Source of the DNA: a virus
Strand: one strand, 5' to 3'
IMG/VR virus record: IMGVR_UViG_3300033985_000077
Coordinates: 1 to 22,806 of that record
DNA length: 22,806 nucleotides
In this document: in pieces, positions 3,992-21,619 of the stretch
Numbering within the stretch: position 1 is the stretch's first letter
Layout of the letters: each line of letters starts with the position of its first letter
The notes under the pieces: model-generated
Seen by the model: only the letters and a program-made list of their open reading frames with translations
Told to the model about the DNA's origin: nothing
Database searches by the model: none
Position numbers and translations under genes: made by a program

Positions 3992-4014
3992 CACTTTCTC
4001 CGACCCTCTCTTTT

Positions 4015-4180
4015 TTATAAGGGGAAGAAAATTGTAGGGAGAGACAATATGGAGGGGCTACGGCAATCCCTACGTTCTGATTCCCGTTCTTCTTCGTTTC
4101 CCCGTTTATGTAGGTATTGTAGTCCCCGTAGGTATCTATTGAAAATATTGTCCGTCTTGTTTATTTTTCCCGGCTTATAA
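4015..4180 (-). repeat. 166-bp TTATAA-bounded element, copy A
   Basis: This element is bounded by TTATAA at both ends (4015-4020 and 4175-4180), with imperfect inverted ends of the form TTATAAG followed by a G/A-rich run. Positions 4054-4153 are identical over 100 bases to the reverse complement of 20198-20297. The outer parts have diverged. It lies in a gene-free stretch upstream of the leftward structural promoter. Short open frames across it lack ribosome sites and are not called as genes. It could be a MITE-like mobile element, a shared enhancer or operator, an origin, or a structured RNA. Confidence 0.8.
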
Positions 4181-4206
4181 AAAAAGGAATTACAAGTGCC
4201 GGGAGT

Positions 4207-4753: not shown

Positions 4754-5392
4754 TTAGTCGTGGACCCAGGAAGGGGGGGATGTCGGGGTTACAATGGCGT
4801 GCGGGTGCAGCGGCATGATTACCCCGACAAAGTTCTCGTCCGCCAGGTTTATCAATGCGCCATCGTTGCCGTTGAATCCGATGCCAACACAGTGCGGGCC
4901 CTTGCCGCCGTGCAAGATTGACCATGCTTTCGCCAGGGTGGCGATAAGGCGGAGGTCAAACTGAGCAGGCTGGCCCGACACTTTTGACGGAATCACACGC
5001 CGAAAATCGGGGAACTCGCCGTCCAGGGTTTTGCCGCTTATGGACAAACCCGCGTAGGTAAGCGTCACCGGGCGGGCGTTGGACGGCACCTTTTTGCCCC
5101 CCTGCTCCTTGAGCTCCCGTTCTCCGATGGTGATTTCCACCAGGCCGGTTGACTTGATCGGCTTGAGCAGATCGTTGGGGATGATGATGTTCGTCAGCGG
5201 TGCGTCAACGTCCGGTTGCTCGCTCTCGACGCGGAAGCATCCGAGCATCGCGCCATTGGAGGCCACTAGGCGGGTTTCCTTGCGGCCGATTTCCAAAATG
5301 ACGCCGTTCAGGCAGTGGCGCACGTCCTTGTCGGCAGCGAACAGCTTGAGCACGGCAATGTAACTGGCTGGGACGGTCAGTTTGATTTCCAT
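4754..5392 (-). CDS. Sliding-clamp-like protein (DnaN family, short)
   Basis: This 212-aa protein resembles the beta clamp that tethers DNA polymerase to DNA. Supporting segments are RLVASNGAMLGCFRVE (residues about 40-55), PNDLLKPIKSTGLVEITIGE, and SISGKTLDGEFPDFRRVIP at about 118-136. The last matches the (L/V)(D/E)G-x-(F/Y)PD(F/Y)RRVIP signature of clamp domains. The C-terminal FVGVIMPLHP is the usual last strand. Bacterial clamps are about 370 aa with three domains, so this one has roughly two and would need to form a higher oligomer. AAGGAG precedes the ATG at 5392. Which polymerase it serves is not shown by the sequence. Confidence 0.7.
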   Translation of the reverse strand: MEIKLTVPASYIAVLKLFAADKDVRHCLNGVILEIGRKETRLVASNGAMLGCFRVESEQPDVDAPLTNIIIPNDLLKPIKSTGLVEITIGERELKEQGGKKVPSNARPVTLTYAGLSISGKTLDGEFPDFRRVIPSKVSGQPAQFDLRLIATLAKAWSILHGGKGPHCVGIGFNGNDGALINLADENFVGVIMPLHPHAIVTPTSPPSWVHD

Positions 5393-5446
5393 GGTGGTTT
5401 CTCCTTTATCTGTTTTCGGGGTATTCAAAACAGCTCAGGTTGGCGG

Positions 5447-6759: not shown

Positions 6760-6805
6760 GGTGTCTATCTCCTTTATGGGGTTATCTCTCAATCTCGTTA
6801 ACTTT

Positions 6806-6836
6806 GTTATAACACGGGAAACCCATTGTTGTCAAT
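6806..6836 (-). promoter_or_regulatory. Leftward promoter with ATTG-N4-CAAT site over the -35 box
   Basis: On the minus strand TTGACA (6830-6835) and TATAAC (6806-6811) are separated by 18 bases. The -35 box lies in the inverted repeat ATTG-N4-CAAT (6825-6836), and GGGTTTCC fills the spacer. The same arrangement recurs at 7782-7812 and 16349-16379 and in weaker form at 11696-11725, suggesting a shared regulator. It should drive the 211-aa gene. Confidence 0.7.
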
Positions 6837-6872
6837 TATTCCCGTTAATAAGCCCGCACATCGGCATTTGAT

Positions 6873-7737: not shown

Positions 7738-7781
7738 GGTGTTACTCCTTTATGGGGTTATCTCTCAATCTCGTTAACTTT

Positions 7782-7812
7782 GTTATAATATAGGAAGCCC
7801 ATTGTTGTCAAT
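7782..7812 (-). promoter_or_regulatory. Leftward promoter with ATTG-N4-CAAT site, second copy
   Basis: TTGACA (7806-7811) and TATAAC (7782-7787) are 18 bases apart on the minus strand, with the same ATTG-N4-CAAT repeat (7801-7812) over the -35 box. The region from here to the start of the 73-aa gene is a near copy of 6760-6836, so promoter and leader were probably duplicated together. Confidence 0.7.
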
Positions 7813-8237
7813 TATTCAAGTAAAATTTGGTTTAACCTCGTTGTCCATTGATCTTTGGTCAGGCCCCGGCTGGTCAGAATATGACAGGCCCCTGGGCCGT
7901 CAACTGGAATACCAATCTTCAAGGCCCGACCTTGGTGATGCCGGTACAAGAATTCATCACCCCCAAACAAAACAAGAATATAAACCTTTCCAGCCAAGTC
8001 CCCCCGGGTTTTTAGCCAGTTGGCTTGGACTGGTGTCATGGTCGGGGTGCATAACCTATCACCCTTTACGTGTCCAATTTTTAATTCTATCCAACCATGA
8101 CCAGACGGGCAGGAATAGGACAAATCCGGGATACCCCCGCTGGTGGTCCCGGATTCGATTCTGTTGTACAATATGTTTTCCATGGCGTCCAGAGCCGGTT
8201 TGACTCTGGTACGCCAATATCTGGTTTCGGGCTTCAT
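7812..8237 (-). CDS. VRR-NUC-type nuclease
   Basis: This 141-aa protein has the PD-(D/E)xK nuclease core of the VRR-NUC family: SGGIPDLSY with D38, then GWIELKIG with E51 and K53. The TPTMTPVQANWLKTRG segment near 64-79 holds the Gln and aromatic residues typical of the next helix. Stand-alone VRR-NUC proteins are phage structure-specific DNA nucleases, probably used on branched replication or recombination intermediates. The start overlaps the datZ stop by four bases (ATGA), so it is the last member of the coupled purZ string. The family call is firm; the substrate is inferred. Confidence 0.85.
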   Translation of the reverse strand: MKPETRYWRTRVKPALDAMENILYNRIESGTTSGGIPDLSYSCPSGHGWIELKIGHVKGDRLCTPTMTPVQANWLKTRGDLAGKVYILVLFGGDEFLYRHHQGRALKIGIPVDGPGACHILTSRGLTKDQWTTRLNQILLE

Positions 8238-8788
8238 GGCATCAGGTTGTCGATGTATGTTTGTTCACCATGGATATATTCAAGCAAGCAGGAATAACTC
8301 CTGTTCCAATCATACTCCGGCAAAGCATGAGACAGTTGGGCGATGAAGGTGGACATATTATTGCTCAGTTTTTCTCGGATTACTTTTGACTGATCATTGA
8401 TGCCCTCCTCGTGCAGGAATTTTACGGCATCGATATAATCAGCCAACTTGACCACGGCACTAGCTAATGCGGATAGGCCCGATGCGAATGACCACCTGCC
8501 CGGATCAATTCTGGCTTCAAGCTCGTCGAATTTGTCCCTTGCAATATTCTTTATTTGGGATACCGGGTCACCCATAACCACCTCAGGCAAATCGTGTACC
8601 AGAGCCCATAGGATGGCTTCATGGGTTTCCTTCTCGGGGATACCGATTCTCTCGCACAAATCCAAGACCAGCATGCACACCAAATACGAATGCTCGGCCA
8701 CGGTTTGTTGTCTTGGGGTGTTAAGAATGTGCCAACGCTTGACGAATTGGGTCCGGTATATGTCGGATAACTTCAAAGATGTGATCAT
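8234..8788 (-). CDS. datZ: HD-domain dATP triphosphohydrolase, DatZ-type
   Basis: This 184-aa protein is in the YfbR/DatZ branch of the HD superfamily. Metal and catalytic residues visible are H20 in KRWH, H33 in AEHSY, H65-D66 in LVHDLPEV with E69, and D117 in VKLADYID. DatZ hydrolyses dATP to deoxyadenosine and triphosphate, emptying the pool of the base that Z replaces. YfbR itself is a 5'-deoxynucleotidase of the same fold, so sequence alone does not settle the substrate. The presence of PurZ and MazZ in the same overlapping string makes DatZ the best call. The start overlaps the methyltransferase stop (ATGA). Confidence 0.85.
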   Translation of the reverse strand: MITSLKLSDIYRTQFVKRWHILNTPRQQTVAEHSYLVCMLVLDLCERIGIPEKETHEAILWALVHDLPEVVMGDPVSQIKNIARDKFDELEARIDPGRWSFASGLSALASAVVKLADYIDAVKFLHEEGINDQSKVIREKLSNNMSTFIAQLSHALPEYDWNRSYSCLLEYIHGEQTYIDNLMP

Positions 8789-9501
8789 ATCTGGCTCCGA
8801 TGCATAAAAATTGATTCACAAGTTCCATCTTTTGGCTTCCCCGCATAGTGTCCAACCACGGTGTTGCCAAAGTTAAAAACCCTAACCCAATCATCCGGGG
8901 CATCGAACTCGGTTAAAAATACCTGGTTACCCTCGGCCACCAACCCCCTGGCGTATTCCCAGAAAGTTTGATGGTCGAAACTCACACCATAAGCATTTGT
9001 TCTCCCGTTATACGGGGGGTCGAGGTATATTGTGGCCCCGATTGGTTTTACATCCAAATAATCACAACAAACTAACTTAAATTTTGATTTTAGCAGCATG
9101 CTCGCTTTTAGCAGCGTGCTTCTTTTGGCGATAATGGCAAAATTGCAGCCGGTACTATTCCTAGCATAACCCCCCCACCACTTGCCCCCAAAGGACATAC
9201 CAAATCCGCAATACGCCGTCATTGGGTCTTCCGGGTTGCGGGTGTTTTTATAGTACTGGTATGTTTCTTCTGTTATAACATCAGGCGGAACCCACCCCCC
9301 AATGACGGCTCTCCACATGTTAATCAAGGGCTCGTTCAAATCGCTTAGTTGGATAAAACCTTTGAGATGAGGCACAATCCTTGAAGCCACCCCCATAGCC
9401 CCGCAGAAGGGTTCATAATATGGTGTTTCCGGGTCAACCCTTTTCAATATGAAATCGGCTATTTTTGGCCCCTGCCGATATTTACCGCCCATATAATTCA
9501 T
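8785..9501 (-). CDS. D12-class N6-adenine DNA methyltransferase (Dam-like)
   Basis: This 238-aa protein begins MNYMGGKYRQGPKIADFIL and shows the AdoMet-binding motif I YYEPFCGAMGVAS at residues 28-40, then the catalytic DPPY at 161-164 (IYLDPPYNGRTN). Motif order FxGxxG before DPPY is that of the alpha (D12, Dam-like) class, which methylates the exocyclic N6 of adenine. The region between the motifs, rich in Gly/Trp/Tyr (CGFGMSFGGKWWGGYARN), would hold target recognition. It overlaps mazZ and datZ by four bases each. In a genome where A is replaced by Z, its substrate is unclear: N6 is also present on 2-aminoadenine. It may act on Z, on residual A, or on host DNA. Confidence 0.9.
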   Translation of the reverse strand: MNYMGGKYRQGPKIADFILKRVDPETPYYEPFCGAMGVASRIVPHLKGFIQLSDLNEPLINMWRAVIGGWVPPDVITEETYQYYKNTRNPEDPMTAYCGFGMSFGGKWWGGYARNSTGCNFAIIAKRSTLLKASMLLKSKFKLVCCDYLDVKPIGATIYLDPPYNGRTNAYGVSFDHQTFWEYARGLVAEGNQVFLTEFDAPDDWVRVFNFGNTVVGHYAGKPKDGTCESIFMHRSQI

Positions 9502-10238
9502 TCTGGTTCCTCCGTTTCACCCTGGTATTGCGATTTGACATGTTGAAACAGGCCGGAAATCGGGTTTTTCCTCCACCGTCTGGTTTTGTTTATAGCCATC
9601 TTTTCGGTGACTGCCTTTTCCGCATCAACCCCAACCAAATAAGCCAAGTCAAGCACCAAAATCAAAATGTCCGCGTATTCCATGGGGTCATGCACACCGC
9701 CATTAACAAGTTCGGGGATCTCCTCAAACACTAATTTGTTGAATGTTCCTTGGTATGTCCGATCTGGGAAAGTTTTGTTTGCCCAATCGGTGATGTCTTT
9801 TTGGATTTCCGCAATCGTACTGCCTTCTTGTACACGAGGTTCAACTTGGCGCAACAGACCCGGCATATCCAATCCCGCCTGAGGATTCGGCTCGGGTAGA
9901 ATTTGTCCACACTCTTCATTTCTTTGCACACCCGGCATCTCTTTTCTATCATCAAAACCCCCTCCATTTATTTCAAAGTGTCTGAGGACTATAAGTCCCC
10001 AAGTCGCATGGGAAAGATGGGGAAGACCCGATTCCGGGTCAAGATCCTCCCCTTCAAACCATGCCATCATATGTCTGTATACGGCGTCCAAAAGTCTGGA
10101 ATAGGCAAAGCCTTTTTTCCAATTTCCTTTGCCATATTTTTTGGCCCCAAACATAAAAACTTGGGCCAGATCCTTCAATGGTCCAGATGGTATCATAGTG
10201 ATACTAGGCTTGCCGGTGTCGGCCTTCTTCGCTTTCAT
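9498..10238 (-). CDS. mazZ: Two-domain dATP/dGTP diphosphohydrolase, MazZ-type
   Basis: This 246-aa protein has two parts. Residues 1-95 (KPSITMIPSGPLKDLAQVFM, GAKKYGKGNWKKGF, SGLPHLSHATWGLIVLRHFE) match the N-terminal domain of phage dATP/dGTP diphosphohydrolases (DUF5664). Residues 142-225 are a MazG-like all-alpha domain (DUF550) with FEEIPELV (E172, E173, E176) and PMEYADILILVLD (E187, D190) as the metal-binding EExxE...ExxD set. In Z phages MazZ hydrolyses dGTP to dGMP, the substrate of PurZ. A Pro/Gly-rich linker joins the parts. It overlaps purZ by four bases. The C-terminal assignment is strong; the nucleotide choice is inferred from context. Confidence 0.85.
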   Translation of the reverse strand: MKAKKADTGKPSITMIPSGPLKDLAQVFMFGAKKYGKGNWKKGFAYSRLLDAVYRHMMAWFEGEDLDPESGLPHLSHATWGLIVLRHFEINGGGFDDRKEMPGVQRNEECGQILPEPNPQAGLDMPGLLRQVEPRVQEGSTIAEIQKDITDWANKTFPDRTYQGTFNKLVFEEIPELVNGGVHDPMEYADILILVLDLAYLVGVDAEKAVTEKMAINKTRRWRKNPISGLFQHVKSQYQGETEEPE

Positions 10239-11317
10239 ATTCTTGACCCCATACTCCGTACATCATCGATACTCGGACCCCACGCCATGTACTTCACTTG
10301 GGAATACGGTCCAATATATCTTTCAGCCATCGAATTGATCCTCCTCGCCAACTGGTAGGCCGCATCAATAGGCAGGTAATCACAAAAGCTCAAAAAGATT
10401 TCATCCGGGGCACATACCTGCATAGCCTGTATGGTTTGTTCCTTGGAAAAGGTGAAAACCCGCCTTTTCAGTTTGGTCACGGTGGTTATTTCTGGTGTCT
10501 TACCCAAGTTTTCCCATGAAATCTCTTTCTGATCGGGGTAACAGGGCCCAGACCAACCTATCATTTCCCCCTTTTCGTTGTACCGGTTGGCCACCCTGAT
10601 GGGAAATGTCCGCATGACACCCACCACTTTTGCCACCCGTTGAAATGGCACCAAACAATCCGACAGGATCTGGGCGGGGGTGCACTCCCGGGATGTGCAG
10701 TACGGATAGAACCCGGAGTTTACCCCCAGGCTGAAACCCTGTGCCCCCTCAATCTGGATCATGTCAGCTTTGTTGACCATCGACGCCCAATCTTTGGTGT
10801 CGACAATGTGAACATCCTTGACAAGGCCTTCGCCCAGGAGTGTACTGTAAATGGTCCCTGCGTTTACCCCGGCAGTGATCTTGTTGTTGGTGGACCTGCG
10901 GAGCTTTTCGATGAGAGCGGCCCCGGAACCCTTCTTGGTCGACCCGATACCCGTCATGGTTGCTTCTTCTTCGTCCCGGTGGTCCTGTCTCACGATAGCG
11001 GCGTTTTCGTGGATGAAAATCACCTTGTCGTGCATGATATCCCGGCACTCCTTCAGTTCCTTGACCAGAGTGTCCAGATTGAGCACGGAGCCAGGAGCGA
11101 TAGCCACAGCGCGGAGCGCGGGGCTTACAATACCATTTGCCAGTGCGCAGTGAATGAATTTCCGGCCATTGGTGTCAATAAAAGTGTGCCCTGCATTGGG
11201 GCTCCAAGCGGTGATGCACAAATCCGGTTCGTGTTTCATGGCCAAGTACCCAGCCGCTGAGCCCTTACCGGTGGAGCCGAACTGAAGATCACAAATCACA
11301 TAGGCATTCTTTCTCAT
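10235..11317 (-). CDS. purZ: PurZ, succino-2-amino-2'-deoxyadenylate synthase
   Basis: This 360-aa enzyme is an adenylosuccinate synthetase homologue that joins dGMP and aspartate on the way to dZMP. The P-loop region reads CDLQFGSTGKGS (residues 9-20). In cellular PurA this is QWGDEGKGK, so the catalytic Asp is Ser here, the replacement that marks PurZ. Other conserved parts remain: SPNAGHTFID (His of NAGHT), TMTGIGSTKKGSG, EGAQGFSLG, TRECTPAQ. It is shorter than bacterial PurA (about 430 aa), as PurZ enzymes are. The ATG at 11317 follows GAGGAG; an in-frame ATG five codons upstream lacks a ribosome site. It heads the purZ-mazZ-methylase-datZ-nuclease string joined by ATGA overlaps. Confidence 0.93.
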   Translation of the reverse strand: MRKNAYVICDLQFGSTGKGSAAGYLAMKHEPDLCITAWSPNAGHTFIDTNGRKFIHCALANGIVSPALRAVAIAPGSVLNLDTLVKELKECRDIMHDKVIFIHENAAIVRQDHRDEEEATMTGIGSTKKGSGAALIEKLRRSTNNKITAGVNAGTIYSTLLGEGLVKDVHIVDTKDWASMVNKADMIQIEGAQGFSLGVNSGFYPYCTSRECTPAQILSDCLVPFQRVAKVVGVMRTFPIRVANRYNEKGEMIGWSGPCYPDQKEISWENLGKTPEITTVTKLKRRVFTFSKEQTIQAMQVCAPDEIFLSFCDYLPIDAAYQLARRINSMAERYIGPYSQVKYMAWGPSIDDVRSMGSRI

Positions 11318-11335
11318 AAAATTGCTCCTCATGTT

Positions 11336-11587
11336 TCAGAAAGGGAGATCATCCATTTCATCGTTGGCGTTGTATTTTGTTTTTTCTGCCTTTTCTTCTA
11401 TTGGGGTGACGGATAACTGCAGGTATTTTTCCCCGTCATTACGCTTGTATGCGGTCCACCCGGATAGCCAATATTCCTTACCCTCAATATTGATTTTGCC
11501 AGTCATGTCTGGGTGCCTGTCCGTGTTCTTCCGGTTGTTCCGGAAGAGGACGCCTCTGTTGCGATCGTCAAATTCTTTTGCTGCCAT
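11336..11587 (-). CDS. Small single-stranded-DNA-binding-like protein
   Basis: This 83-aa protein (MAAKEFDDRNRGVLFRNNRK) has a run of beta-type segments, TGKINIEGKEYWLSGWTAYK then EKYLQLSVTPIEE, of the size of a minimal OB fold. It ends in the acidic tip NDEMDDLPF, very like the DDDIPF tail that bacterial SSBs use to recruit partner proteins. Similar small proteins accompany phage replication genes. It lies between the polymerase/zinc-ribbon genes and purZ. The ATG at 11587 has AGAGG upstream. The tail motif is clear; SSB function is inferred. Confidence 0.6.
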   Translation of the reverse strand: MAAKEFDDRNRGVLFRNNRKNTDRHPDMTGKINIEGKEYWLSGWTAYKRNDGEKYLQLSVTPIEEKAEKTKYNANDEMDDLPF

Positions 11588-11588
11588 G

Positions 11589-11687
11589 TTAACCTCTTTC
11601 TTCGGTATGTCTACACTGTTCATTCTGACACACCCATGTGCCGGGTGCCACCTCTGCCATTTCTTCTTCACAACTCGGACAATTCAT
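11589..11687 (-). CDS. 32-aa zinc-ribbon protein
   Basis: A very short frame reads MNCPSCEEEMAEVAPGTWVC then QNEQCRHTEERG. Its four cysteines form CPxC and CxxxxC pairs typical of a minimal zinc ribbon. The ATG overlaps the polymerase stop codon (ATGA), a strong GAGGAGGG site precedes it, and its stop is immediately followed by the SSB-like start. These three features together argue that it is translated. It could bind nucleic acid or a replication protein. It is easily missed by length cut-offs. Confidence 0.7.
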   Translation of the reverse strand: MNCPSCEEEMAEVAPGTWVCQNEQCRHTEERG

Positions 11688-13615
11688 GTGCCCTCCTCAT
11701 AACATACGACACCCATTGATGTCAAGTAATCTTTGGAATGTGACCAACCCTTACCCGTTATTTTTTCGGCTTGTGTGGCCTCCCACCAATTTTTACCGGG
11801 TATAGAAAAATCAATCCTAAGTGGGATCCTTAATTCGGGTCGGTCCTCGATAAGATATTTGATTCTTTCCAAGTGTTTTTTTGCATTGTCACAAGACAGA
11901 CTGATTGAATATTCATCGTGAATCGAAAGCAGCAGCCGACCCCCGCTCTCCGCCTCCAAGTATTCACATATCCGGCAGATGTTTTCTTTGTTGAGATCCG
12001 CACTTGAACCCTGATATATCAAACCAGATGCCTTGTGTGTGAATTTCCCACCGGGAAAGCGAATATGCCGACCTTTCAAGGTGCGAACATAACCCCGGGA
12101 CTTAGCCACGGCGGAAGCGTTTTTTGCCATCTCCTTGACACCAGGAACAGCATCATAGTACTTGGCCATGACAGCGAGGGTTTCCTCCCCCGGCTTCAAA
12201 ATCTCCCGCTCTTCAGTGTCGTCCTTAAATTTGACTTTTTCGATGGTAAAGGGGAGGCCCATCTTTTCAGCTAATCTCCCTCCGCCCATATTAAATACCA
12301 TGGCAAGGTTGATTTGCTTGGCGTTCGCCTGTCCGGATCTGGTGGCGTTCCGGGGCAAGCCGGTCATATCTGCCACAACCTGGTGAATGTCGAGATCAGG
12401 ATTTTCCCGATAAGCTTGATTCAGGGAAGGTGCATTGACATAATGTGCAAAGATACGGAATTCATGCTGGTCTAGGTCCCCGTACGCCCAACCCTGGCCA
12501 TCATCAGGTAAAAATATCGGACGCACCAGCGAGGCGATCTCCTTATCCCTGCTGGGTATTTGCTGGAGAGCCGGATTGGAATATGAAAGCCTTCCCGTAC
12601 CAGTGCCCTCAACCCCGCCGCTGCTTTCGGACTTGGTTTGGTTGATGTTGGGGTGTACCCTACCATTGTGGGTGTGTTCAATCACGTGCTTGGCCAGAAA
12701 TGTGTCCCGGGTCTTCATGTACTTGCGGCATCTTAAGATTAACTTGGCCGCAGGATGTGTCATAGCCAGAAGCTGGTCTGCTCCTATGGATGGTTGATCT
12801 CCACTGGTGGCCGGGAGAGGTGTACCGTCACATGCTATCCATACACCATCTTTATTCTTCTTCGGGTTGAACAGTTTTTTGATTGACCCAGATGGGTTTG
12901 GGTTCACATGAAACCCGGCCACCTTATCCAATTCTTTCTGGATTTGGTCAATCTTGACAGTCAATTTATCTATGGTTTTGTGGGCCAAATCCACATCAAC
13001 TCTTATACCACGCCTTTCCATGTCAAAAATAAAAGGAAAAAGCCTCATCTCAAGGGCGTGAACCTGTTGTAGACACTGCCTTTTTATTTCCTTTTGCTGC
13101 CACATCCACAATTCCATGGCAACCCTGCTGTCCATCTTGGCGTATTCTTCAACCACGCTTTTTGGTGCCCTGCTGATATTTTTCATCTGGGCGGTACGTG
13201 TTGGTTGCCCACCAAATAATCCGGCCAACTTTTCATATATGGTTGAATCTTTTCGTTTACCGATATATTTTTGGGCCAGTGAATCAAGATCGTATTTGAA
13301 CAAATGTTCATCAATCAAAGCGGCATTGATCATAGTGCACTCAACCCGCCGGGGGTCAATCACAATGCCCTCATTTAGGAGCATGTGCATATCAAATTTG
13401 ACATTGTGATTGACAACCTTGTTTATTTTGGGGGCTTGGTCCCTGAGCCATGCAAAAAGGCCCTCATCCACCCGGCTGTCGAAATAATAATCCCGGATCT
13501 CACCCCCATCAAAGGTAGACACTGCAACACCAAAAACCTTGTCTCTGTACCACTCCACACCTGTGGTTTCTACGTCTATTGAAACCACTTCATATCTGTC
13601 TAGATTCGGGTACAT
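11684..13615 (-). CDS. Family A DNA polymerase with 3'-5' exonuclease, DpoZ candidate
   Basis: This 643-aa polymerase is Klenow-like, with no 5'-3' exonuclease domain. Exonuclease motifs are SIDVETTG (D14, E16), NHNVKFDMHML and YAKMDSRVA. Polymerase motif A is YGDLDQHEFRIFAHY, motif B spans RSGQANAKQINLAMVFNMGG, and motif C is LSIHDEYSI. In the O helix the usual NFGxxYG is changed to NLAMVFN, so the Phe, Tyr and Gly positions that shape the nucleotide site are Leu, Phe and Asn. Known Z phages of the phiVC8 type use a family A polymerase (DpoZ) that prefers dZTP; the neighbouring purZ cluster makes that likely here. ATG at 13615 has GAGGTG upstream; a GTG two codons earlier is possible. Confidence 0.9.
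   Translation of the reverse strand: MYPNLDRYEVVSIDVETTGVEWYRDKVFGVAVSTFDGGEIRDYYFDSRVDEGLFAWLRDQAPKINKVVNHNVKFDMHMLLNEGIVIDPRRVECTMINAALIDEHLFKYDLDSLAQKYIGKRKDSTIYEKLAGLFGGQPTRTAQMKNISRAPKSVVEEYAKMDSRVAMELWMWQQKEIKRQCLQQVHALEMRLFPFIFDMERRGIRVDVDLAHKTIDKLTVKIDQIQKELDKVAGFHVNPNPSGSIKKLFNPKKNKDGVWIACDGTPLPATSGDQPSIGADQLLAMTHPAAKLILRCRKYMKTRDTFLAKHVIEHTHNGRVHPNINQTKSESSGGVEGTGTGRLSYSNPALQQIPSRDKEIASLVRPIFLPDDGQGWAYGDLDQHEFRIFAHYVNAPSLNQAYRENPDLDIHQVVADMTGLPRNATRSGQANAKQINLAMVFNMGGGRLAEKMGLPFTIEKVKFKDDTEEREILKPGEETLAVMAKYYDAVPGVKEMAKNASAVAKSRGYVRTLKGRHIRFPGGKFTHKASGLIYQGSSADLNKENICRICEYLEAESGGRLLLSIHDEYSISLSCDNAKKHLERIKYLIEDRPELRIPLRIDFSIPGKNWWEATQAEKITGKGWSHSKDYLTSMGVVCYEEGT
11696..11725 (-). 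promoter_or_regulatory. Possible internal promoter before the zinc ribbon, ssb and purZ string
   Basis: TTGACA (11720-11725) and TATGAG (11696-11701) are 18 bases apart on the minus strand, inside the last codons of the polymerase gene. The -35 is followed by TCAATGGG, matching the promoter family at 6806, 7782 and 16349 (TTG-N4-CAA is kept). The -10 is weak, and a start here would fall almost at the zinc-ribbon ATG, so it would chiefly serve ssb and the purZ string. Confidence 0.4.
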
Positions 13616-13617
13616 AT

Positions 13618-15045
13618 TCACCTCAACATGGGGAGAGGGTTATCATCAAAGACAATATCCAGGGTATGTTTAGCCCGGGTCACGCCAACATAGAAAACCC
13701 GGATTTCCCCATCCGGGTTGTTGTGTAAGGCCTCGGCACTCCGGGCATTCATGGCATTTATCAGGATAACCCTTTCAGCTTCCCGGCCCTTACTACCATG
13801 AATCGATGACAGGTGAATTGTGGGTCTGACATTCAGACCATACCGGGTTTCAACCTCAGCCAAGTAATTGATATCAGCATACCTACCCACGGCGATATCT
13901 GTCCAGTGTTTTTTGTTTAAGAATGAAAAATCATCAGCATCGATTTCCCGGGACTGCCCCGGAAACACTCTTTTCATGGCCCTGCGCTCGGCCTCTGTTG
14001 CCATGCTGCAGTGCATTGCGTTGAAATTCTTCCCACAGGCCACCAAAGCTTTTACGGCCCTGGCCAGATAAGATTGCATCACCCCAGGTTTTCCGGAGTC
14101 AGTGATGTATGGTGTGTTCGACTCAATCAATTTTTGCTCGATGTCATTCCTCAAAGAATGGTTACGGTACAAAATCAAGACGTCCTCACCGTGCGTGATC
14201 GGGTTTAGATTCCACACTGTGTCAAATTTCCGGACCCGTCCGCTTTCCGTTCTTGGTTTGTATATCTTTTCCTGTCGTTTGGATATTTGGTTTATGAGAT
14301 CGGTTGCCAGTGTATGTACGCTGGCTGGGATTCTATACGACTGATCCAAGATTTTGATTCCAGAGGCATACCTTTCAGCGAATTTGTTCATACCGGCGGG
14401 GTCGGCACCCCCAAACACATATATGGACTGGTCATCATCTCCAGCCACAAACACTCTTTTCATATTTGCTGCCCAAGATTCGACCAACTTCCACTGCAGG
14501 GGTGATAAATCTTGGGCCTCATCAATAAAGAGGTTTTCATAATTAATCGTGGTCCCGTATGCCAACTCCAACATATCTGTGAAGTCCACCAGACCGTAGG
14601 CCTTCTTAAATTCTTCATACTTCTGAACAAAAAATCTGAATTCTTCCGGGGATCCGTCCCGGACGGTATGATCATAGGTTTCGCCAAGTTCGCTGCGCAG
14701 TTTGTTTCTATGCATTGAATACAAAGCTAGATAAAAATCGCCAATCTGGGGTAATTCACCTTCTTCCGGATTTGAGCCCGTAATTTCAAACCCGGTCAAA
14801 CTGGCGAACTTCTTGAAATCGTCGCGACCGATGACCTGGTCCTTTGTAATCCCGGCACTCCGGAAGGCCAGGCTGTGGATGGTGGAAATATCAAAATCCA
14901 TACCCTTGCATCTGGAGGTCATTTCCGCCGCTGCCGCCCGGGTGAATGACACAAAACAAGATTTGCCCTTGGTGCTTTTCATAATATCGATCAAGGTGGT
15001 TGATTTGCCACAGCCGGGAGGCCCAAATATTACGGTGCTTTCCAT
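13618..15045 (-). CDS. UvrD/Rep-type superfamily 1 DNA helicase
   Basis: This 475-aa protein is a short UvrD-like helicase. Motif I is GPPGCGKST (residues 8-16), motif II is FIDEAQDLSP, motif III is VAGDDDQSIYVFGG, motif V includes LSSIHGSKGREAERVIL and motif VI is VFYVGVTRAKHTLD. It should unwind DNA 3'-5' during replication or repair. Cellular UvrD/Rep proteins are about 670-720 aa; the inserted 1B/2B domains look shortened here. AGAGG lies upstream of the ATG, after a perfect hairpin in the intergenic gap. Its stop lies just before the polymerase ATG, placing the two in one transcript. Confidence 0.9.
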   Translation of the reverse strand: MESTVIFGPPGCGKSTTLIDIMKSTKGKSCFVSFTRAAAAEMTSRCKGMDFDISTIHSLAFRSAGITKDQVIGRDDFKKFASLTGFEITGSNPEEGELPQIGDFYLALYSMHRNKLRSELGETYDHTVRDGSPEEFRFFVQKYEEFKKAYGLVDFTDMLELAYGTTINYENLFIDEAQDLSPLQWKLVESWAANMKRVFVAGDDDQSIYVFGGADPAGMNKFAERYASGIKILDQSYRIPASVHTLATDLINQISKRQEKIYKPRTESGRVRKFDTVWNLNPITHGEDVLILYRNHSLRNDIEQKLIESNTPYITDSGKPGVMQSYLARAVKALVACGKNFNAMHCSMATEAERRAMKRVFPGQSREIDADDFSFLNKKHWTDIAVGRYADINYLAEVETRYGLNVRPTIHLSSIHGSKGREAERVILINAMNARSAEALHNNPDGEIRVFYVGVTRAKHTLDIVFDDNPLPMLR

Positions 15046-20151: not shown

Positions 20152-20170
20152 CTAGTGTTGTTCCTTCTTT

Positions 20171-20336
20171 TTATAAGAGGGAGAAGTTGTCCACGGTGGA
20201 CAATATTTTCAATAGATACCTACGGGGACTACAATACCTACATAAACGGGGAAACGAAGAAGAACGGGAATCAGAACGTAGGGATTGCCGTAGCCCCCAC
20301 ACACTGTCTCCCCCTACAATCTCTCCCCTCTTATAA
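20171..20336 (+). repeat. 166-bp TTATAA-bounded element, copy B
   Basis: This is the inverted partner of 4015-4180, of the same 166-bp length with TTATAA at both ends. Positions 20198-20297 are identical to the reverse complement of 4054-4153. A perfect 17-bp palindrome (20187-20203, TTGTCCAC-G-GTGGACAA) lies in its left part and is absent from copy A. It fills most of the 318-base gene-free region between the diverging primase and exonuclease genes. The rightward promoter begins 24 bases beyond it, matching the position of copy A relative to the leftward structural promoter. Confidence 0.8.
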
Positions 20337-20359
20337 AAAAGAAGCAGGATAAATTCCCA

Positions 20360-20414: not shown

Positions 20415-21008
20415 GTGAAAATTCTTTTCTTTGACACGGAAACAACAGGCCTTGATTTTGAAAGGTCGGCAATTATTCAATTTGGTGCCATTCTAGATGA
20501 TTTCAAGCTCAAACTGACTACAAAACTAAACATCAAAATAAAACCCCACGAAGATGCCTTGATTGAAGACACTGCTCTGGAGGTAAACAAAACATCCAGA
20601 GAAGATTTGTTGTCTCCGGATAGGGTTGATCACAAAGCCGCATACAAGGAAATCATAGATATGTGTGGTTTCCCCCGCCGGGTGCACCCGATTAACAGAG
20701 TTTTCTTGTGCGGCTATAACATACTCAGTTTTGATATTCCAATGTTCTATAAGATGGCCCACCGTAGCGGGGACCAATACCCCCATGGGAAATTCCACTG
20801 GCCCGGCATAGATATAGCACCTCTCGCTGCTTTTTACTTGGGCAAGAAAAGAATGGATCTCCCGAATTTCAAACTCATGACAGTAGCGGAGGCTTTAGGT
20901 ATCAAAATTGATCCAAATGAGGCCCATGATGCTTTATACGATGTTGAAATTACTCGGAAGATGTATTATAAACTTTGTAAGTATATGGGTTGTGGTGTGC
21001 ACATATGA
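20415..21008 (+). CDS. DnaQ-like 3'-5' exonuclease
   Basis: This 197-aa protein has the DEDDh exonuclease motifs: ILFFDTETTGLDF near the start (D7, E9), GYNILSFDIPMF in the middle (third acidic residue), and EAHDALYDVEIT near the end (His and last Asp). Stand-alone phage proteins of this type proofread, trim or recycle DNA ends. The start is GTG at 20415, with GGAGG five bases upstream; the frame reaches back to 20367, but that part overlaps the promoter. It ends in a four-base ATGA overlap with thyX. As the family A polymerase already has its own exonuclease domain, this enzyme may have another job. Confidence 0.88.
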   Translation: MKILFFDTETTGLDFERSAIIQFGAILDDFKLKLTTKLNIKIKPHEDALIEDTALEVNKTSREDLLSPDRVDHKAAYKEIIDMCGFPRRVHPINRVFLCGYNILSFDIPMFYKMAHRSGDQYPHGKFHWPGIDIAPLAAFYLGKKRMDLPNFKLMTVAEALGIKIDPNEAHDALYDVEITRKMYYKLCKYMGCGVHI

Positions 21009-21619
21009 AAATAATCAAACCTAAAGTCTTACCAGAATTTTTGCCAGATTATTTTGTTCTGACCACGTTGATAGAACGTGCCGCCCGGACTTGTTACAAA
21101 TCGGAAGGTAAAATCAAACCAGGATCGGCTGAAGAATTGATAAAGTCTTGTATTCGAAGGGGTCATGGGTCTGTACTTGAACACGGGTCAATCACATTAA
21201 GATTTATCACAGACAGGGGTGTTACCCACGAAATCGTCAGACATCGTGTTGGGGTGGCTTATAGTCAAGAGAGTACCCGTTATTGCGATTATAAAGATGG
21301 GGAAATCAATTTCATAGAGCCTTGGTGGTATGAAGAAGGCACCAACACTCAAAGAAAAGGTTTTGATTCTATGTGTCACTCTGCTGAGGCAGAATACAAA
21401 CACATGAGACATAGCCTCGGTTTATCACCCCAAGCAGCACGGGCGGCACTTCCCTGTGCCGTAAAAACAGAAATTGTTATGACTGCTAACATCCGGGAAT
21501 GGAGACATATACTTAGGTTGAGATGTGATCCTGCTGCACACCCGGATATGGTCCGTATCATGAACATGGCCAAACATATATTACAAACTAAATACCCAAT
21601 CTTTTTTGAGGATCTGTGA
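21005..21619 (+). CDS. thyX: Flavin-dependent thymidylate synthase ThyX
   Basis: This 204-aa protein makes dTMP from dUMP using methylene-tetrahydrofolate and FAD/NADPH. The ThyX motif is RHRVGVAYSQESTRY (residues 79-93), matching the usual RHR-x7-S-x-RY region. Upstream RRGHGSVLEHGSITLRF (51-67) is the folate/FAD-contacting segment, with HGSVLEH well conserved. Downstream, AARAALPCAVKTEIVMTANI and REWRHILRLRCDPAAHPDM are the typical C-terminal substrate regions. The start is the ATG overlapping the exonuclease stop. In a Z phage it would keep dTTP available to pair with Z. Confidence 0.95.
   Translation: MKIIKPKVLPEFLPDYFVLTTLIERAARTCYKSEGKIKPGSAEELIKSCIRRGHGSVLEHGSITLRFITDRGVTHEIVRHRVGVAYSQESTRYCDYKDGEINFIEPWWYEEGTNTQRKGFDSMCHSAEAEYKHMRHSLGLSPQAARAALPCAVKTEIVMTANIREWRHILRLRCDPAAHPDMVRIMNMAKHILQTKYPIFFEDL

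Follow-up and report, generated by a model that had tools for sequence, protein, structure and literature searches.

A probable phage PurZ with a Ser/Asp pair at its donor site, encoded in a Z cluster together with a Dam-like methyltransferase

Is a phage protein with the PurA fold, in which serine stands where adenylosuccinate synthetases have a catalytic aspartate, an active PurZ, and if so, which substrate and which phosphate donor does it take? The question is raised by a minus-strand gene in the IMG/VR virus record IMGVR_UViG_3300033985_000077, positions 1 to 22,806 of which were analysed here as a whole (the window). An initial annotation, made from the sequence alone, proposed that the gene encodes a PurZ that has lost the catalytic aspartate, a loss that would fit the use of dGMP.

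Identity and setting of the purZ gene

The minus strand at this site reads ...YVICDLQFGSTGKGSAAGYLA... and belongs to an open frame of 365 codons (10235-11332, minus strand). The motif FGSTGKG occupies residues 13-19 if counting starts at the second ATG (11317), and 18-24 if it starts at the first (11332). The residue numbers of the initial annotation are thus correct for the second ATG, which is used throughout this work, and the motif lies inside the interval 11260-11295 that had been quoted for it.

The product is almost certainly the phage enzyme PurZ. It reaches 369.5 bits with the curated PurZ model NF038379 (cut-off 300, E-value 1.1e-110), matches PHROG 1211 at 2.1e-89 and, by phmmer, phiVC8 PurZ (6FM1) at 2.3e-86; the scores for NF038379 and 6FM1 exclude a chance resemblance. 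Of 50,697 phage records searched by tblastn, 200 matched, the top hit having 53% identity. The AF2 model, based on 39 aligned sequences, has a mean pLDDT of 92.7 and resembles phiVC8 PurZ (6tnh, Z 49.6; 6fm1, which contains ATP and dGMP, Z 49.5, rmsd 1.7 over 340 aligned residues) and S-2L PurZ (7odx, Z 45.9), with lower scores for Pyrococcus PurA (5k7x, Z 40.5), PurZ0 (7vf6, 39.1) and E. coli PurA (1cg1, 36.6). Identity to the phiVC8 and S-2L (7ODX) enzymes is about 45% and 43%, respectively, and the serine, the dGMP-pocket residues and the fold are the same: the S-2L substrate contacts G22, S23, N49, A50, T132, Q190, V241 and T273-T276 are identical in the window protein, and R280 maps to R285. 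In a tree of 58 proteins the window protein pairs with that of viral contig L017 (100/100) inside the PurZ clade (nodes 96/94 and 97/98).

Three other identities were considered. A divergent PurA, acting on IMP for the phage or its host, would account for the PF00709 match and the PurA fold, but it is very improbable, as the aspartate of WGDEGKG is replaced by serine, the score with the purA model TIGR00184 is only 98.3 bits, far under its cut-off of 395.55 and well below that with the PurZ model, the PurZ-specific TTVT loop is present, and the neighbours are Z-cluster genes. Equally improbable is a decayed, inactive purZ copy: the frame is open and preceded by a ribosome-binding site, the structure model is confident, the operon is overlapping, and 57 of 57 near-invariant columns (at least 97% in 93 other PurZ) are retained, so that the gene is not decayed and the protein, as had been proposed, looks active by its sequence. 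A PurZ0-type enzyme of the Arthrobacter/Gordonia branch would share the serine and the Ser/Thr plus Asp donor pair (7VF6; Arthrobacter phage Wayne, Gordonia phage Frizzle), yet it is the least probable of the three, given 30% identity to 7VF6, a separate PurZ0 clade (100/99) without the window protein, a P-loop GSTGKG rather than GSEAKG, DatZ and MazZ as neighbours, and no dUTPase-type gene seen among the scanned window proteins.

The window PurZ is surrounded by a complete Z cluster, with purZ, mazZ, datZ and dpoZ all together (Table 1), in the order helicase-DpoZ-SSB-PurZ-MazZ-methyltransferase-DatZ-PHROG2165. As ATGA overlaps are found at all four junctions from purZ/mazZ through mazZ/methyltransferase and methyltransferase/datZ to datZ/next gene, the genes from purZ to the PHROG 2165 gene are likely to be carried on one transcript. 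By analogy with published relatives, PurZ would join L-aspartate to dGMP while a nucleoside triphosphate phosphorylates the 6-oxygen; the product, N6-succino-2-amino-2'-deoxyadenylate, would be converted to dZTP by host enzymes. MazZ would supply dGMP, DatZ would remove dATP, and DpoZ, from the same operon, would insert Z into the phage DNA.

Table 1. Features of the Z cluster and of the purZ gene (window coordinates)
Feature	Position	Strand	Remarks
PHROG 2165 family gene (labelled DNA helicase, but small)	7812..8237	-	ATGA overlap with datZ
datZ, HD-domain dATP triphosphohydrolase	8234..8788	-	PHROG 7076, 2.5e-25; HD_3
Dam/D12-type DNA adenine methyltransferase, 238 aa	8785..9501	-	PF02086, PHROG 56; ATGA overlaps on both sides
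mazZ-type fusion, PF18909 (dGTP_diPhyd_N) + PF04447 (dATP/dGTP pyrophosphohydrolase)	9498..10238	-	4-base ATGA overlap with purZ
purZ, 2-amino-2'-deoxyadenylosuccinate synthase	10235..11317	-	360 aa, ATG at 11317
Donor-base loop SFCDY, residues 310-314	10376..10390	-	Ser310 + Asp313, compared with Asn + Asn/Gln in ATP-type PurZ
NAGHT with catalytic His44 retained	11183..11197	-	residues 41-45
FGSTGKG P-loop, Ser15 at PurA Asp13 position	11261..11281	-	alignments
AGGAG ribosome-binding site for start 11317	11325..11329	-	7 bases upstream of start
Single-strand DNA-binding protein (SSB)	11336..11671	-	PHROG 7364
dpoZ, aminoadenine-incorporating DNA polymerase	11684..13621	-	NF038380, 883.1 bits (cut-off 500)
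UvrD-type helicase	13618..15045	-	same order as SH-Ab 15497 and PMBT28

It is useful to compare this arrangement to Acinetobacter phage SH-Ab 15497 and Salmonella phage PMBT28, whose PurZ proteins are 52% identical to the window PurZ. Both have the order helicase-DpoZ-SSB-PurZ-MazZ-DatZ-PHROG2165, and in SH-Ab 15497, as in the window, the PHROG2165 gene lies downstream of datZ and MazZ is a fusion of two pyrophosphohydrolase domains (PMC12884076). They differ from the window in two respects: their records are without the D12 methyltransferase, and their donor-base positions are Asn/Asn.

Some features of the window outside the cluster are recorded here as well. A 175-nt inverted repeat (4009-4183 and 20168-20342, 87% complementary, 16 kb apart) lies at the ends of the minus-strand replication block, and an 80-nt direct repeat (6769-6848 and 7745-7824, 91% identical), possibly a pair of shared regulatory sites, lies upstream of minus-strand genes. 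A 224-aa protein (4754-5428, minus strand) gives a partial match to the DnaN clamp (TIGR00663 positions 121-253; 39.8 bits, below the cut-off). A ThyX thymidylate synthase (20990-21619, plus strand; 122.5 bits, cut-off 87.9) is encoded on the opposite strand and adjoins a DnaQ-like exonuclease. A tRNA scan of the window found none.

Serine at the catalytic aspartate position

Ser15 (with M at 11317 as residue 1) shares a gap-free column with Ser23 of S-2L PurZ, Ser14 of phiVC8 PurZ and Asp13 of E. coli PurA (Asp14 when the numbering includes the initiator Met), and the phmmer alignments to 6FM1, 7ODX and 7VF6 support the same column. The proposed replacement of the catalytic aspartate by serine is thereby confirmed. 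The structural comparison with the S-2L and phiVC8 enzymes (Z 45.9 and 49.5) agrees in fold; note that the residues themselves, Ser15 included, were mapped by sequence alignment, the fold comparison yielding ranges, not residue pairs. The histidine of NAGHT is H in 93/93 PurZ, 3/3 PurZ0 and E. coli PurA, and it is retained in the window protein, as had been noted.

The related loci were collected with an alignment query, a search with the single PurZ protein having given none, and 80 viral PurZ contigs were kept from 374 matching ones. For 80 of the 93 PurZ loci the search pattern required GSTGKG, and six bacterial contigs were likewise fetched by Ser-favouring patterns, so none of these is an independent test of the serine. 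Independent are the 11 phage PurZ records retrieved following the tblastn search, the three PurZ0 records and the published count. Serine occupies the Asp13 position in 11/11 and 3/3 of these records, and also in one Flavobacterium phage protein. In the literature, it is given for 147/147 phage PurZ/PurZ0 sequences, with Ser or Gly in four archaeal ones (PMC12884076), and the ZP6 paper describes it in every PurZ that it compares (PMC8515928). Serine at this position is an already known hallmark of the PurZ family and is nothing new by itself. As a marker, the loss of the aspartate separates PurZ from PurA, as had been suggested, but the serine alone fails to separate PurZ from PurZ0, or the phage enzymes from two Ser-type proteins encoded in a bacterial chromosomal context.

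The two proteins are encoded in two proteobacterial MAGs, L099 (7252-11656) and L100 (7275-11618). They are PurZ-like proteins of the Ser type with GSTGKG and score 206.5 and 209.4, respectively, with the PurZ model, under its cut-off of 300. The gene order, cmk - purZ-like - RdgB/HAM1-like - rpsA, is a housekeeping setting in which a cellular PurZ relative adjoins a relative of purine NTP pyrophosphatases. The search for PF00709 showed no second such gene in either genome, while one is present in 21 of the 29 other genomes retrieved as relatives (8 are without).

The loss of the aspartate had further been said to fit the use of dGMP through the 6-oxo and 2-amino groups. dGMP differs from IMP only by the 2-amino group and by the absent 2'-OH, the 6-oxo group being common to both; the 2-amino part of that argument stands and the 6-oxo part does not. 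In the S-2L structure the serine hydroxyl and the 2-amino nitrogen of dGMP are 3.7 A apart, a distance too long for the hydrogen bond that had earlier been proposed (PMC8342488). Because of this distance, the role of the serine in specificity is indirect. The initial annotation mentioned neither the donor site nor the neighbouring methyltransferase, to which the next two sections turn.

The phosphate-donor site

Tong 2023 reportedly found that PurZ0 uses GTP and that the donor changed in one direction only, from the GTP of PurZ0 to the ATP of PurZ. The donor of PurA is GTP (PMC12884076); one sentence of that paper (section 24) appears to reverse the donor preference of PurZ0 and PurZ, contradicting its own introduction. 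In S-2L PurZ, the donor adenine is held at its 6-amino group by oxygens of N305 and Q308 and of the backbone at G335, and the amide of Q308 (N297 in phiVC8) would clash with a 2-amino group (PMC8342488). Guanine is often recognised by an Asp that binds its N1 and N2 hydrogens (PMC11594714), and the substitution Asp333Asn is reported to switch E. coli PurA to XTP in place of GTP (Kang 1994, cited in PMC7952092).

The counterparts of the three S-2L residues in the window protein are S310, D313 and G347 (phiVC8 has N294/N297). We also considered a change in the third adenine contact, with Ala345 nearby, and rejected it; as G335 corresponds to Gly347 and is unchanged, only the two side-chain contacts are claimed to be changed. 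A comparison was made with 99 other PurZ (93 distinct; 14 phage records, 83 viral contigs and 2 MAG contigs). Position 310 is N in 96, G in two (L023 and L026) and S in one, and position 313 is N in 96, Q in two and D in one; L017 alone has both Ser310 and Asp313. The corresponding pair is T/D in E. coli PurA and T/D, S/D and T/D in the PurZ0 of Wayne, Frizzle and Hiyaa, respectively. Because both adenine-recognising side chains are replaced by the pair of the GTP-using PurA and PurZ0, we lean slightly towards the view that the window PurZ and its sister in L017 use GTP, not (d)ATP, as phosphate donor.

The rival reading is that this is an ordinary ATP-using PurZ in which Ser310 and Asp313 are tolerated substitutions that leave the donor unaffected. 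We give it somewhat less than an even chance. Sequence and fold are overall nearest to ATP-using PurZ; F311 and P348, which stack on the donor, are retained along with the backbone-contact residue G347 as in the ATP enzymes; position 310 varies, to Gly, in two of the 99 other PurZ; and the 6-amino group of adenine could still donate hydrogen bonds to the oxygens of Ser and Asp. Within the PurZ clade proper the change is seen in two sequences only. Against this reading, both contacts are changed together, to just the Ser/Thr plus Asp pair of the GTP enzymes, and the pair has stayed the same in two enzymes whose sequence identity is only 61%. In a tree of 50 proteins, which includes three further Ser-type relatives, the D/N state needs 4 changes, of which the branches starred in that tree force at least 3, and the window and L017 proteins are nested among Asn/Gln rows of the ATP-type clade. 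For GTP use, then, the donor pocket would represent a return to the GTP type inside an ATP-using clade, a reading that we favour by the same small measure of confidence.

A further D-state case outside the window and L017 is found in the same tree. It is L218, the PurZ-like protein of L147 (9740-10795), with a GSEGKG P-loop and the loop LTFCDY, i.e. a donor pair of the GTP type; its gene adjoins a DatZ-like gene and a methyltransferase of the clade described in the next section.

If the donor has indeed changed, the switch would be a reversal in the one-way GTP-to-ATP picture, and two residues would explain the choice of donor.

The methyltransferase of the Z cluster

The methyltransferase between mazZ and datZ scores 42.3 bits with PF02086 (cut-off 22; 9.7e-11), matches PHROG 56 DNA methyltransferase and has DPPY at residues 161-164. 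A PDB sequence search gave no match at E 0.01, so the assignment of the fold to Dam comes from fold comparison: the AF2 model, with a pLDDT of 90.0, adopts the Dam fold and gives Z 16.8 against the E. coli enzyme. DPPY and this fold are common to Dam of E. coli, T4 Dam and DpnM (Z 15.3-16.8), but these are only 16-20% identical to the window enzyme, which falls in a clade of its own and is encoded within a Z cluster.

PF02086 occurs in the window and in 3/80 PurZ viral contigs (L017, L031 and L042), and in 0/18 named phage records and 0/3 further contigs. From a search with an alignment of the window and L017 enzymes, 80 of at least 223 relatives were taken. A PF00709 scan of these 80 records, together with 8 phage records, gave 7/88 matches, six with Ser at the Asp13 position and one, a 413-kb contig, with Asp. 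Contig G137, a PF00709 match with Asp (GDEGKG), was rejected as a PurZ.

A quick tree was made of 57 methyltransferases (88 collected, 78 after removal of near-copies). One clade (SH-aLRT 100) holds nine rows, eight of which, the window among them, come from records with a Ser-type PurZ; the ninth, L137, is a 40-kb record without such a gene. Among the matches listed, none of the other 48 rows comes from a PurZ-bearing record. The PurZ label needs 2 changes on this tree, compared with a mean of 7.7 after shuffling, and 0/500 shuffles were as low. The eight PurZ-linked rows are the window, L134, L135, L136, L139, L140, L147 and L042. Of these, L135, L136, L139 and L147 were found independently of PurZ; L042, which has a long branch, was found via PurZ only; and L134 and L140 represent the same contigs as L017 and L031. 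In L135, L136, L139 and L147 the Ser-type proteins, that of L139 being partial, reach 182, 170, 114 and 198, respectively, and since this is below the NF038379 cut-off of 300 they are to be called PurZ-like, not proven PurZ. In an alignment of 31 sequences, R167, beside the catalytic DPPY, is found in six of the eight PurZ-linked rows and in L137, and T in 17 of the 22 others; elsewhere the clade has Q10, A96, K132, T197 and F199.

A methyltransferase dedicated to Z-DNA has a plausible use, since Z-containing DNA is a poor substrate for the methyltransferases of E. coli and 6-methyl-2-aminoadenine confers endonuclease resistance (PMC8342488). We found no paper on a methyltransferase of Z-phages in the open-licence literature. 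It is possible, and we suggest it only tentatively, that this subfamily is dedicated to Z-DNA and is a candidate for the N6 methylation of 2-aminoadenine at a specific site, which would be a second layer of protection. If so, some phages with Z genomes would carry a modification of a modification, and their methyltransferase would serve to mark Z-DNA at chosen sites in the laboratory.
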